From Thermococcus zilligii AN1 (lineage in GTDB: Archaea > Methanobacteriota_B > Thermococci > Thermococcales > Thermococcaceae): a stretch of DNA of 64,000 bases. The stretch spans positions 186,001 through 250,000 of the forward strand of contig NZ_AJLF01000002.1 in assembly GCF_000258515.1 (NCBI RefSeq). The letters are read 5' to 3'. Below, piece by piece: positions 33,726-41,250 of the stretch; position 1 is the first letter of the stretch; each line of letters starts with the position of its first letter. A program made the position numbers and the translations under genes. The notes beneath the pieces are model-generated. The model was not told the origin of the DNA and ran no database searches. It saw nothing but the letters and a program-made list of their open reading frames with translations.

Positions 33726-33768
33726 CTCCGTATATTGCTACTGGTGACTGCCTGGTGGGGTGTTGGTC

Positions 33769-34848
33769 ATGGACTGGAGGAAGTCTGCTCTTAGCCTTTT
33801 CCTTGTTGTCATGCTGTTGAGTCTGCAGTTGATTGCGGCTCCCTAGGCCATGGCGATGGGTGTGAATAACTCCAGCGTGACCTTCCGCAGGGCGGTAGTT
33901 GCGTGGTACGATGAGAAGGGTAAGCTCGAGATGAACGTCACCTGGGTAAATGAAACGTTGAACCTCACTGGTTTAGCGAATTCCCCATGCGCCTGTCTGA
34001 ATGCCAGTTCTTGTGGGGCCCTTAATGAGAGTAACCACTATAATGTCTCAATAGTCACGCTGTACAACATGACGAAGAAGCATGAACAGCTGCTGTTTAT
34101 CAGGGTTACTGCTTATAATGCCACTTTTAACTACACCATGTACAACCTTGTTTATAGGGCCGAGAGGAGCCAGTATAATTTCACACTAATCACGAAAATC
34201 TTGGCGGATCCCGAAACTGGAAAGTACTGGGCTTTTGTAACTGGGATGAACATAGCTCCGGATGATACAGACAGGGCAGTTCCTGTTGGGGACACCGTGC
34301 TGGTGCTTGGCAATCTTACGCTATCGGATTACTACTGGACTCTTAGCAAGGTTCTCATGGGGCTTGGAAAGCACGATGTGACGAAGTGGATCTGGGACAG
34401 GAGTGCCCAAGAGCTGAGGCACCTATCTCACTTAGTTAAGCTGGAGCTATCAGAGTACAATGAGGAAGCAAAGTTGGGGTACACTATAGTCATCGATGAT
34501 TACTCAGCGTGTGTCCACGTCTGTGACTTATCATGTACTGGACTTTTTACCCTTGCCTGTATAGCTGCAGCAGGGAGTAGTGGAGGAATACTCTCGTTTA
34601 TATGCTTCGCGGGAAGCTTTATATGCTCTGGTCTTTGTGGCTATATGTGTGGACAAGGCATTAGCAGTATATTAGCGGGGGGATCTTGCTCTACCGCGTG
34701 CTCTATTGGGCTAAAAAAAGCTTGTGCAAGTAGATGTGGAATATTGGGGAGTGTCTGCGCAGATGCCTGTGGGGCGGTTTTGGCCCCTATATTTTGTCCT
34801 CAATTCTGTGATGCTCTACCTTACATCATTAAGGCTTTATTTTCGTGA
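33769..34848 (+). pseudogene. Cys-rich archaeocin-like precursor with an amber codon in the signal peptide
   Basis: The frame starts at ATG 33769 (RBS GGTGGGG) with a signal peptide MDWRKSALSLFLVVMLLSLQ, then TAG at 33844-33846 (AAP-stop-AMAMG), and continues open to 34848. The middle part (about 200 residues) is rich in N-x-S/T sites. The last 110 residues hold 16 cysteines in Gly/Ala/Ser-rich hydrophobic sequence (CVHVCDLSC..., CSGLCGYMCGQG, CSTACSIGLKKACASRC). This layout, secreted N-terminal domain plus Cys-rich C-terminal peptide, resembles halocin C8 precursors. A likely CAG-to-TAG change would explain the stop. Restart at ATG 33850 would lose the signal peptide. Confidence 0.6.
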
Positions 34849-34876
34849 TATTGAATAAATAATGGGGGGATTTAAA

Positions 34877-35671
34877 ATGAAGCCCGGGAGGAAGCTGGTG
34901 CTGGAAGCTGTGCTGGTTCCTTTGATGATTGTGATGGCCTTTTGGGGACTGTACTATTTTCATCCACGTGTCCCATCTCAGAAGATGAATATCACCATTT
35001 CGGGACTGATGACTGCAGTCGTTTCCTTCTTCATCGCGCTTGTTGTGGCCATTTTTATGCTCAAAAGACGATTGGAGAAGGAGCACAATTCCAGATTCCC
35101 GTTTAGGGATCTCCCTCACGTTATCGATAAGACTGACCTAGAGATTATCCAGGACTCTGCAAGGGATATAGTTTTTGTAATTCTCATGTGGGGTTCCCTC
35201 AGCACGGCCATTGTTGATATGGGATTTGAAAGGGGTATTATCTACATTGTCAACTTCCTCATGATATGCGCGATGATTTGTCTCCCAATGTTTTTGGCAG
35301 TAGCGGTGCTGTTCATAGACTTCCCCGTCTTTCTCTACGCGCATTTCATTGGAAAAGAATCCCCGCCAGGTTCCAGAGAGATACTTCTCGGTTCGCTGGT
35401 TTCTCTGTCTTCTCTGGTCGGGGTGGGTTTGGTTGCAAATTATTCTGATGTTCGTATTGATGTAATACGTCCCATTCTGAATTTCTATGGCAAATACCAA
35501 ACAGTGTATAGGTACGTCCTGTTGCTTTCTGCTCTGGACGCTCTTTACGGCCTTGTAGGAATTCTAATCCTGCCTCGGAGGAGAAGGCTTGGCCTCTTAA
35601 CTCTCCTAATGATTGCCCTGGCTCTTATTCCCCTCCTGATAAAGGTTTTTGTCCAACTGCACTCATTGTAG
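34877..35671 (+). CDS. Multi-pass membrane protein, candidate partner of the Cys-rich precursor
   Basis: A 264-residue protein with about six or seven membrane segments and a short basic linker RRRLE. ATG 34877 follows GGGGGGATTTAAA. It begins 28 bp after the Cys-rich precursor and is in the same direction, so likely one operon. The middle part (DIVFVILMWGSLSTAIVDMGF) resembles the next membrane protein (HLVLWGFLSSALLEF), suggesting a shared family. Role in immunity or export is a guess from position. Confidence 0.7.
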   Translation: MKPGRKLVLEAVLVPLMIVMAFWGLYYFHPRVPSQKMNITISGLMTAVVSFFIALVVAIFMLKRRLEKEHNSRFPFRDLPHVIDKTDLEIIQDSARDIVFVILMWGSLSTAIVDMGFERGIIYIVNFLMICAMICLPMFLAVAVLFIDFPVFLYAHFIGKESPPGSREILLGSLVSLSSLVGVGLVANYSDVRIDVIRPILNFYGKYQTVYRYVLLLSALDALYGLVGILILPRRRRLGLLTLLMIALALIPLLIKVFVQLHSL

Positions 35672-35778
35672 TTTGGATTTATCAAAAACCCAGGTGGTCT
35701 CCGTGAAGGGAAAAATTATCTTTTTGAGATTTTCATTTTCCCCGGGGGCTCTTCGCGGCGCTATTTGGCTTCACCGGG

Positions 35779-36213
35779 GTGAAACTCGGCGTCATGACCT
35801 GTGAATGGGCTCTCATTACGGCCCTTCTTTTTGTTCTCCTCGCGGGTTCAACCGTCGCCTTCCTCGTCCGCATTCTAAAGAAGCACGGATACAGGAAAAG
35901 TGACATTAAGCAAATTGACGAGATTCTTGAGGAGCACTGGAATGAACCGTGGGATTGGGGATATCTAAAGTACGACGTGAAGCATTGTATCATTTACCAC
36001 CTCGTTCTATGGGGATTTCTCAGCAGTGCCCTTCTGGAGTTTCGGAATTTTTCTCTCGTTATCGTGGCGCTTATCGGTTTCGGTTTTCTCCTGCTGATGG
36101 CATACCCCTTTTTTGCCACCTCCAAACTCCTGTTGTGGATATCGGATTATCCAGGGCGGGAAAGAGATCCGGTTGATTCACGTCCCTCTTTGAAAAACGT
36201 TTGGTTTTTATAG
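35779..36213 (+). CDS. Short membrane protein related to the preceding one
   Basis: A 144-residue protein from GTG 35779 (ATG 35794 is an alternative) with an N-terminal segment, a charged loop containing EILEEHWNEPWDW, and two further segments. It aligns by eye with the middle of the 34877 protein: a D/K-rich helix, an LWGxLSxAxxE motif, hydrophobic segment, then a P-F/Y motif and SDYP or IDFP. It lacks that protein's last two or three segments. Gene order suggests a duplicated partner gene. Confidence 0.6.
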   Translation: MKLGVMTCEWALITALLFVLLAGSTVAFLVRILKKHGYRKSDIKQIDEILEEHWNEPWDWGYLKYDVKHCIIYHLVLWGFLSSALLEFRNFSLVIVALIGFGFLLLMAYPFFATSKLLLWISDYPGRERDPVDSRPSLKNVWFL

Positions 36214-39109: not shown

Positions 39110-39135
39110 TATTATAAAGCGTAAGACTTAAATAT
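39110..39135 (+). promoter_or_regulatory. Promoter region of the second Cys-rich precursor
   Basis: Two TATA-like elements, ATTATAAAG (39110-39118) and GACTTAAATA (39124-39133), precede the GTG start at 39167 and could give alternative start points. Confidence 0.45.
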
Positions 39136-39166: not shown

Positions 39167-39928
39167 GTGAAGAGGCTCGCGGCCGTGCTGGTTGTGTTCC
39201 TTATCCTGGGTCTGACAATTAGCTCTGTCGTGGCAACGTCTGATTTTGTGTCAAAGTCAACTTCAAGTGCTCCGCCAACTTTAGAATGTCCCTGCTGTTT
39301 GGGAAACATAAGTTTGCAGGCGGATCTCAAGGTGCAAGAACTGAAAGGTCCAGTGGCTTACTTTAAGGCACTTAGAGCCTTTAATGCCGAGGATGTATTG
39401 AAGATGAGAGAGTACCTCCATACTAAAATCCTTGTACCGATGTATGAAAACGCCACGACTCTGGTAATGAAGTATAATGGGACAACAGTGGAGATAGTAA
39501 AGGTGCCATTGGTTGGGCCCACAACTGTAGGACAGCTAATTTACGTAAAGAACAAAAGGGGTGAAGCTGCTGCTGCTATCGGGATTATCGAGAATAACAA
39601 TACATCACCAAATTCTATTAAGTCGTATGTTGTGGAAAACGATGTCGTAAGGGAAATTAATCCTATAAAGCCACAGTTCTTTGGATGGTTCAAGTGCCAC
39701 ACTTGTGAAGTTGCGGTTGGTGGTCTATGTGTACTTGGGACAGCCGCTATATCGAGACTCGGTTGCGCCGGAGCATGCGCTCTTGTGGCTGCATTGTTTA
39801 TCGAAAATCCTGCTGTAGTTGCGGCTTGGGGTTCTGTGTGCATTCCTGTATGTAGCTGGGGAATAAGGGTCTACGGATGCGACTATGGGGCTTATAGGAT
39901 ATGTAAAGCAGTGGGGATGTGTGGGTGA
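39167..39928 (+). CDS. Halocin-C8-like archaeocin precursor (candidate)
   Basis: A 253-residue protein. GTG 39167 follows GGTGATGCCC and gives a signal peptide KRLAAVLVVFLILGLTISSVVA. The middle (residues about 30-170) is a soluble domain with a CPCC motif near its start. The last 80 or so residues hold ten cysteines spaced as CHTC, C, C, C, C, C, C, C and a terminal CG, in Gly/Ala/Val-rich sequence (FKCHTCEVAVGGLCVLG, LGCAGACALVA, CIPVCSWG). Halocin C8 is also a C-terminal peptide of about 76 residues with ten Cys, cut from a secreted precursor whose N-terminal part gives immunity. Sequence similarity was judged by eye. Confidence 0.65.
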   Translation: MKRLAAVLVVFLILGLTISSVVATSDFVSKSTSSAPPTLECPCCLGNISLQADLKVQELKGPVAYFKALRAFNAEDVLKMREYLHTKILVPMYENATTLVMKYNGTTVEIVKVPLVGPTTVGQLIYVKNKRGEAAAAIGIIENNNTSPNSIKSYVVENDVVREINPIKPQFFGWFKCHTCEVAVGGLCVLGTAAISRLGCAGACALVAALFIENPAVVAAWGSVCIPVCSWGIRVYGCDYGAYRICKAVGMCG

Positions 39929-39934
39929 TGCAGT

Positions 39935-40174
39935 ATGGGGAAGAAATTTAAGTTGGGCTTTTTGGATATTTTCCTATATTTTGTTCTCTTTGCATTGTTC
40001 GTTTATGGGGCGGAAGAGGTTCGTATGTTAAAAGGAAAACTCCTGATTGTATTGGCACTTGTGGTGGGTGGTGTCTATGAGTATCATCATCTGAAAAACA
40101 CCAATGTGCTTTCCAAATATCTTGCCACCTATAACAAACTTAGACGTTTAATTTTTGGCACAGATCATTCTTAG
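39935..40174 (+). CDS. Small membrane protein in the archaeocin-like operon
   Basis: A 79-residue protein with two hydrophobic segments (FLDIFLYFVLFALFVYG and LLIVLALVVGGVYEY) and a basic tail. It starts 6 bp after the precursor stop, with GGGTGAT as ribosome site, so it is co-transcribed. It could be an immunity or accessory protein. No family recognised. Confidence 0.6.
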   Translation: MGKKFKLGFLDIFLYFVLFALFVYGAEEVRMLKGKLLIVLALVVGGVYEYHHLKNTNVLSKYLATYNKLRRLIFGTDHS

Positions 40175-40197
40175 TTTGATGTGGCGAGGTGGTGTTA

Positions 40198-40373
40198 GTG
40201 AGACTAAAACGGCCTTTAACTCTTGTTTATATTGTACCTTGTGATAAGTTCTCTGGACTTAGCTTTGGTGTTTGCTGTGTATTGGAACAGGAGCTTTGGG
40301 ATGCTTTAACTGTGCCGCTGTTGTGTGGGGAATTTATTCCTGTGCAAAAGCTGCTCAATGCGTAGGGAGGTGA
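40198..40373 (+). CDS. Small Cys-rich ORF, apparently frameshifted
   Basis: GTG 40198 after GAGGTGGTG opens a 55-codon frame ending at 40365. Its first half (VPCDKFSGLSFGVCCV) looks Cys-rich, but the second half does not. Another frame from 40284 to 40373 reads IGTGALGCFNCAAVV-WGIYSCAKAAQCVGR, which closely resembles the C-terminal ends of Cys-rich peptides. Adding one base near 40280 would join the two into a peptide of about 57 residues with eight Cys. It may be a second small bacteriocin-like peptide. Confidence 0.4.
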
Positions 40374-40378
40374 ACCCC

Positions 40379-40726
40379 ATGGAGTTAAAACAGCTCTTTG
40401 CTCCATTATTTTCTATTTTGGGGATAATGACAGCGTTGGTCTATGGAGTTCTTCAGGAACGGTATTTTCCTGTGTTTGTTGGAGTTCTTAACTTGATATT
40501 GTGGGCTGTTGAGCTAAAGTGCCAGTTTAATTGTAGATGCATAGGGGATAATATTCAAAATGAATTACTTCTTATCGGTACGTTTTCTGTGTTTAGTATA
40601 TCTTCGAGTTCCATTGCAAAGGCGATTGCGTTGGGCGGTAGCTTAACACTGGCTCTCTTAACCATGCTAACTTTTGTCCTGTACCGGCGAAACTCGTCTG
40701 ATGATTCTGGAGGGAATCGGAGATGA
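40379..40726 (+). CDS. Small four-helix membrane protein in the archaeocin-like operon
   Basis: A 115-residue protein with about four hydrophobic segments and a CQFNCRC motif in the middle. ATG 40379 follows GGGAGGTGA. It overlaps the next gene by 4 bp. Size and context suit an immunity protein, but there is no sequence proof. Confidence 0.6.
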   Translation: MELKQLFAPLFSILGIMTALVYGVLQERYFPVFVGVLNLILWAVELKCQFNCRCIGDNIQNELLLIGTFSVFSISSSSIAKAIALGGSLTLALLTMLTFVLYRRNSSDDSGGNRR

Positions 40727-41250
40727 TGAAAGGCATACTAGTTGTTTTGATTGGTGTTGCACTAATTGTAGGTTTTTCTGCGGGCTGTATCTCTGCTGGA
40801 ACCCCTATAGACGGTATTCTGTCCTACTGGCGTTCCATTAACTCTTTCACGGCTCATGAAACAATCAAACTCGGCAATCAAATCTTCGAAAGCTACGTGA
40901 AGTTCACGAGGCCTGACAAAATCGCTCGGGCAGATTACGTAAACGGGTCACTGATTCAAGAGATCAGGGTTGAAAACGGCGTCCAGAAGGTCGTAACGGT
41001 CAACGGGACATTCATTTTGAACGCTACTCTTGACGACGTCAACTTCCTCGACCCCTTTGCTCTAATACTGAATAACCTCGACTCATTCAATGTCACAAAG
41101 AGGAACAGCACGCTCCTTCTGACGTCCAAGACCGGTGGGCTTCCATCGTATGAGGTGGAGCTCAACGGAAAACTGCCCAAGAAGATTACGGTGAGGCAGG
41201 CCGGACTCGTGCTCGTTGTGGAGTACAAAATGATTACTGCAAAAACTTGA
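40723..41250 (+). CDS. Lipoprotein with LolA-like domain (candidate)
   Basis: The 175-residue protein has a lipoprotein-type signal ending FSAGC. The mature part has beta-rich segments such as YVKFTRPDKIARADYVNGSLIQEIRVENGVQKVVTVNG, similar to the LolA/outer-membrane-lipoprotein-sorting fold seen in archaeal surface lipoproteins. It is coupled to the preceding gene by ATGA. Its relation to the Cys-rich peptide is not known; lipoprotein immunity factors exist for some bacteriocins. Confidence 0.6.
   Translation: MMKGILVVLIGVALIVGFSAGCISAGTPIDGILSYWRSINSFTAHETIKLGNQIFESYVKFTRPDKIARADYVNGSLIQEIRVENGVQKVVTVNGTFILNATLDDVNFLDPFALILNNLDSFNVTKRNSTLLLTSKTGGLPSYEVELNGKLPKKITVRQAGLVLVVEYKMITAKT

Follow-up and report, generated by a model that had tools for sequence, protein, structure and literature searches.

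A candidate secreted polymorphic archaeocin system with exchangeable tip and immunity cassettes in Thermococcus

Background

Halocin C8, the name-giving member of the TIGR04449 domain family, is an antimicrobial peptide whose prodomain, HalI, provides immunity. The halocin C8 family was reportedly expanded across the archaea by Makarova et al. in 2019. A second point of reference is provided by polymorphic toxins such as CDI and Rhs, which combine a constant part with 3' cassette exchange that carries the immunity gene along and with strings of old immunity genes, and which most archaea generally lack (Zhang et al. 2012, PMC3482391). A third is VARTIG, a hypervariable immunoglobulin-domain module of the Thermococcales whose function is unknown (PMC8416519). 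Both the family of halocin C8-like domains and the mode of variation seen in bacterial polymorphic toxins are known; in the literature searched, Makarova et al. 2019 aside, polymorphic small cysteine-rich archaeocins carried on two backbones were not found.

The analysis described here concerns a stretch of 64,000 nucleotides of the Thermococcus zilligii AN1 genome (the window), for which an initial annotation had proposed a single operon of the halocin C8 type. The proposal was right as a lead, but the locus is larger than one halocin operon. Its product is likely to be a secreted archaeocin of the polymorphic kind, with exchangeable tip-immunity cassettes and a candidate killing function.

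The class B precursor and its halocin C8-like tip

The precursor at the centre of the locus, here termed class B, is an ORF of 253-264 aa extending from 39134 or 39167 to 39928 (+), depending on the start. A TATA-like element, TTATAAAG, found by eye at 39112-39119 (+), is likely to be the operon promoter, and because of its position the true start is probably ATG 39161 or GTG 39167, not ATG 39134. A scan for sigma-70 promoters, a method unsuited to archaea, gave matches at chance level. An N-terminal hydrophobic signal, recognised by inspection, and a middle domain precede a tip of 82 aa (39680-39925, +) that contains exactly ten cysteines and ends in CG, in agreement with the 253-residue precursor of the initial annotation, which had a signal peptide, a middle domain and a C-terminus of about 80 residues with the same cysteine count and ending. 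That annotation had also suggested a likeness to halocin C8 and had made it depend on a profile match; such a match was obtained, NCBIfam model TIGR04449 (halocin_C8_dom) aligning over its whole length (model positions 1-69 of 69) with precursor residues 188-263 at E 1.9e-10 and a score of 41.6 bits, where the curated cut-off is 24. A Pfam search of the precursor returned no family above cut-off, and a scan of genome contigs with the class B precursor gave no match. The predicted structure of the precursor was poor (pLDDT 64), and a fold search with that model found no match below E 0.001.

The Thermococcus precursor shares with the halocin C8 family the cysteine-rich C-terminal domain over the whole model and an N-terminal signal and prodomain, but the prodomain is unrelated by profile and there is no Tat-type RR signal. 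The haloarchaeal sequences used in this comparison were annotated relatives, found with a halocin C8 probe sequence that served no other purpose. Further differences from that family are that in Thermococcus the tips are swapped on constant backbones, that the putative membrane-bound immunity co-varies with the tip and that decayed cassettes lie downstream.

Two backbones and a variable tip

A search with TIGR04449 of 201 genomes, comprising that of T. zilligii AN1 and 200 relatives, found matches confined to its own genus, with a second match in its own genome (G000:C2:17222). Precursors in Thermococcus are built on two unrelated backbones, class A of ~325-365 aa and class B of ~260 aa, the window precursor belonging to the latter; an hhalign comparison of backbones A and B gave no match (probability 0.4%). 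The class B locus lies between genes resembling methylthioadenosine phosphorylase and MTA/SAH deaminase (names by inspection) in three genomes (G000, G046 and G054), and class A occupies several other sites, away from that of class B. Class A was found in 25 of 101 genomes, all of the same genus and with up to five matches each; scanning genome contigs with the class A alignment yielded two Thermococcus MAGs and nothing else, and a search of plasmids for relatives of this class found none.

The 48 intact precursors collected by script, 40 on backbone A and eight on backbone B, all have a constant backbone and a hypervariable tip, and the tips fall into 13 clusters. Most of these clusters are without a known profile, since NCBIfam searches of the precursors tested gave no match above cut-off other than for the halocin-C8-like ones, and for this reason many of the tips are called putative toxins by analogy. 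In class A pairs with tips of different clusters the backbones are up to 92% identical at the amino acid level (median 70%), whereas the tips of the same pairs have a global identity of ~0.28, which is near the level of unrelated sequences. In the closest pairs nucleotide identity is ~0.87-0.97 over most of the backbone and ~0.47 beyond the tip boundary. One of the features by which polymorphic toxins are recognised, a fixed N-terminus to which different C-terminal tips can be fitted, was therefore found here.

Pairing of tips with membrane proteins

All 48 tips have an ORF with predicted transmembrane (TM) helices within 110 nt downstream. At least two such helices, as counted by a simple hydropathy rule, are predicted in the follower of 47 of the 48 precursors, compared with 29 of 240 control ORFs (12%), and as the controls were drawn from the same loci and include some immunity arrays this background is if anything overstated. 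The proteins that follow the 13 kinds of tip fall into 19 clusters, none of which is common to two different tip clusters. A common TM cluster was observed in 82 of 132 same-tip pairs against a maximum of 24 in 5000 shuffles, a comparison that is not a strict probability because the sequences share ancestry. The other 50 pairs belong either to the two-member cluster 7 or to the broad halocin-like tip cluster, within which every close tip subtype has a TM family of its own. The pairing is seen across backbones as well, for L015 (class A) shares one tip subtype with L012 and L013 (class B), the tips being 43-45% identical, and the TM proteins behind them belong to a single cluster. Gene order and cluster pairing thus agree with the arrangement in polymorphic toxins, where a tip-specific gene adjoins the tip on its 3' side, and the TM protein directly behind the tip is probably a tip-specific immunity protein.

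The alternative that the halocin C8 plan applies unaltered, with the prodomain acting as immunity in the manner of HalI and the downstream genes concerned with export or unrelated, draws on the same order of domains (signal, middle domain, cysteine-rich C-terminus), and an N-terminal immunity part had been assigned to the precursor in the initial annotation. It is nevertheless quite improbable: the prodomain is near-constant across tip clusters, as is clearest from the stability of the class A backbone, and it is the downstream membrane protein that changes with the tip; moreover, HMM and hhalign comparisons, based on shallow alignments, detected no homology between the class B prodomain and those of haloarchaeal halocin C8 relatives. 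In two haloarchaeal loci (L120:4304-4510 and L121:4299-4505) a 69-aa gene with two predicted TM helices adjoins the halocin-C8-like gene on its downstream side, a likeness between the two groups from which it follows that the pairing of tip and TM protein may extend beyond Thermococcus.

Strict pairing and hypervariability would be expected equally if the tips were hypervariable secreted peptides and the membrane proteins their cognate receptors, acting in signalling or kin recognition with no killing involved. This must be considered unlikely, in that the halocin C8 domain, which takes its name from an antimicrobial peptide, is matched by some of the tips, and the TM genes outlast their peptides, which fits immunity proteins and fits receptors less well. 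In its favour is the precedent of VARTIG, for which self/non-self recognition is among the hypotheses and which likewise occurs in Thermococcales, has a C-terminus made hypervariable by recombination and has distinct membrane proteins following distinct variants (PMC8416519). VARTIG proteins, however, are large, carry immunoglobulin domains and lack recognised toxins, whereas some of the tips described here are halocin-C8-like and no immunoglobulin domain of the VARTIG type was found among the precursors, which have no Pfam family above cut-off.

To return to the immunity reading, the candidate immunity to the current tip of the class B precursor is a two-TM protein of 79 aa (39935-40174, +), a designation that rests on its position, its homologues and its dN/dS. 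The ORF corresponds to the two-helix protein noted earlier behind the precursor. Its homologue in genome G050 is identical at 46 of 72 positions, with dN 0.25 and dS 1.59 by a rough estimate. In that genome the class B precursor has been reduced to its start and the last residues of the tip (..YGAHRICGVVEICG, corresponding to ..YGAYRICKAVGMCG in the window precursor), and the 79-aa homologue behind it is intact; in G006 a homologue occurs without any precursor at the same chromosomal site, directly ahead of the deaminase gene. That the homologues have outlived the precursor in both genomes is evidence that the 79-aa ORF is a genuine gene, and retention of a TM gene after loss of the toxin is the behaviour expected of immunity genes. 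Membership of the immunity family that accompanies the related tip subtype of L012, L013 and L015 was considered and rejected, for the proteins are similar by eye, yet the profile match is not significant (E 2.6), a result that counts against the cassette reading. A second multi-TM protein of ~110 aa occurs near the 79-aa homologue in both precursor-less genomes (L054:4687-5019, - strand, and L125), and is probably a further orphan immunity.

Displaced cassettes

Downstream of the 79-aa gene the window contains the remains of an older cassette with a tip of a different type, here called beta. The stretch 40263-40370 (+) translates to LWCLLCIGTGALGCFNCAAVVWGIYSCAKAAQCVGR followed by a stop codon and is the sole significant match to the beta-tip profile among the 2243 six-frame fragments of the window (E 6.3e-10), by which it is identified as the decayed 3' remnant of a displaced tip. 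It lies in a frame adjoining that of a small Cys-rich ORF (40189-40365), which is rejected as a gene and is instead an out-of-frame reading of the decayed beta tip. Immediately behind, at 40379-40726 (+), lies an ORF of 115 aa that begins with ATG and codes for a multi-TM protein; it is the sole significant match to the immunity-beta profile among the same 2243 fragments (E 4.2e-8), and in other genomes its best match is the immunity adjoining an intact beta tip in G028 (L103). It may be regarded as an immunity kept after its beta tip was displaced. Of the four small genes that the initial annotation had placed behind the precursor, the two-helix, four-helix and lipoprotein ORFs can be kept, the four-helix protein being the 115-aa ORF just described, whilst the Cys-rich one gives way to the decayed tip.

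Such fossils are not peculiar to the window. At L015 two further tips lie downstream of the main tip and its TM protein: first a displaced one, which has kept half a backbone and its own TM protein, and then a third, of which the decayed end is left together with its TM protein. TM proteins not cognate to the active pair lie behind it at L103, L104, L108, L092, L118, L017, L019, L107 and L114, and displaced tips and strings of immunities were found at L015, L103, L108, L104, L092, L118, L017 and L019 as well as in the window. Displaced cassettes with strings of orphan immunities downstream, another feature of polymorphic toxins, are therefore present.

The window holds a second precursor, missed in the initial annotation. 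It is of class A, has a 16-Cys tip (33763-34848, +) and is intact except for an in-frame TAG at 33844-33846, which breaks the signal peptide. Behind it lies an intact multi-TM candidate immunity (34862-35671, +; 269 aa, or 264 aa if ATG 34877 is the start), and a second member of this family, a truncated copy, comes next (35776-36213, +). In other loci (L109:4079-7280, L088 and L090) one large TM immunity family occurs in tandem, in up to four copies, behind a single 16-Cys tip.

The TAG in the class A signal peptide and the decay of the beta tip might be taken to mean that the whole locus is a relic, its precursor silent or decayed and its genes retained by chance. This is very improbable indeed, given that the class B precursor is intact, that dN of the 79-aa protein is well below dS in the comparison with its G050 homologue and that a third precursor, also intact, is present elsewhere in the genome (L014).

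A lipoprotein that accompanies backbone B

The last gene of the locus (40723-41250, +) encodes a lipoprotein that is assigned a LolA/LolB fold on the basis of a structure model. The LolA-like appearance remarked on in the initial annotation is supported by this model (pLDDT 80), which has 71 PDB matches with E<=0.001, the best being to LolA and LolB (E 1.9e-7, TM 0.63). The likeness to LolA and LolB is one of fold, but the window lipoprotein differs from them in being archaeal and linked to a bacteriocin-like precursor, with no outer membrane to serve. It is present at every intact backbone-B locus regardless of the tip and is decayed in G050 alongside the decayed precursor; gene content thus shows it to go with backbone B and not with any tip. 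A PADLOC search revealed no defence family, the only match being a weak, chance-level one of the lipoprotein to Cas8a.

Two variants of this region were observed. At L053:5118-5936 (-) a candidate immunity TM segment and the LolA-fold lipoprotein are fused in one protein of 272 aa. At L012:7100-7561 (-) a small secreted thermonuclease-like protein (YEFQAYGYVTKVVDGDTVW...) is encoded downstream of the lipoprotein, and it occupies the same place in L048 and L050; in the window it does not follow the lipoprotein.

A proposed mode of action

In the mechanism proposed here the constant backbone, consisting of a signal peptide and a soluble prodomain, would export the precursor, and an extracellular protease, by analogy with halocin C8, would free the C-terminal tip, which is disulfide-rich, hydrophobic and predicted to be mostly helical. 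The freed tip would attack the membrane of related Thermococcus, and the small membrane protein encoded directly behind it would protect against that tip alone, as the strict pairing suggests. At class B loci the LolA-fold lipoprotein would probably hold the hydrophobic tip or the precursor at the cell surface. Comparison of loci indicates that tip and immunity travel together as a cassette, taking the place of the former 3' end of the precursor gene, and that older cassettes are pushed downstream, where the tips decay and the putative immunities stay, as exemplified in the window by 40263-40370 and 40379-40726.

The resemblance to polymorphic toxins extends to the constant N-terminus, the variable tip, the order of toxin and immunity, the standalone cassettes and the immunity strings (PMC3482391). 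In those systems, however, the proteins are large, depend on contact and bear nuclease or deaminase tips, whereas the Thermococcus system would consist of small secreted cysteine-rich peptides with membrane proteins as immunities, and it is without Rhs or filament parts. No means of contact delivery and no dedicated apparatus were found at these loci, the components seen being the signal peptide and, for class B, the LolA-fold lipoprotein.

On balance it seems reasonably probable that this is a genus-wide Thermococcus system, in which two unrelated backbones draw on a common pool of cysteine-rich tips, most of them of undescribed types, with tip-specific membrane immunities, recombination at the 3' end, fossil cassettes and, in the case of backbone B, a LolA-fold lipoprotein.

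Significance

Very little is known of how hyperthermophilic archaea antagonise one another. If the interpretation given here is true, about a dozen new families of heat-stable peptides would be added, together with predicted toxin-immunity pairs ready for testing in a genetically tractable genus, and the genome of a Thermococcus strain would be a record of the toxins that its lineage has used and met.
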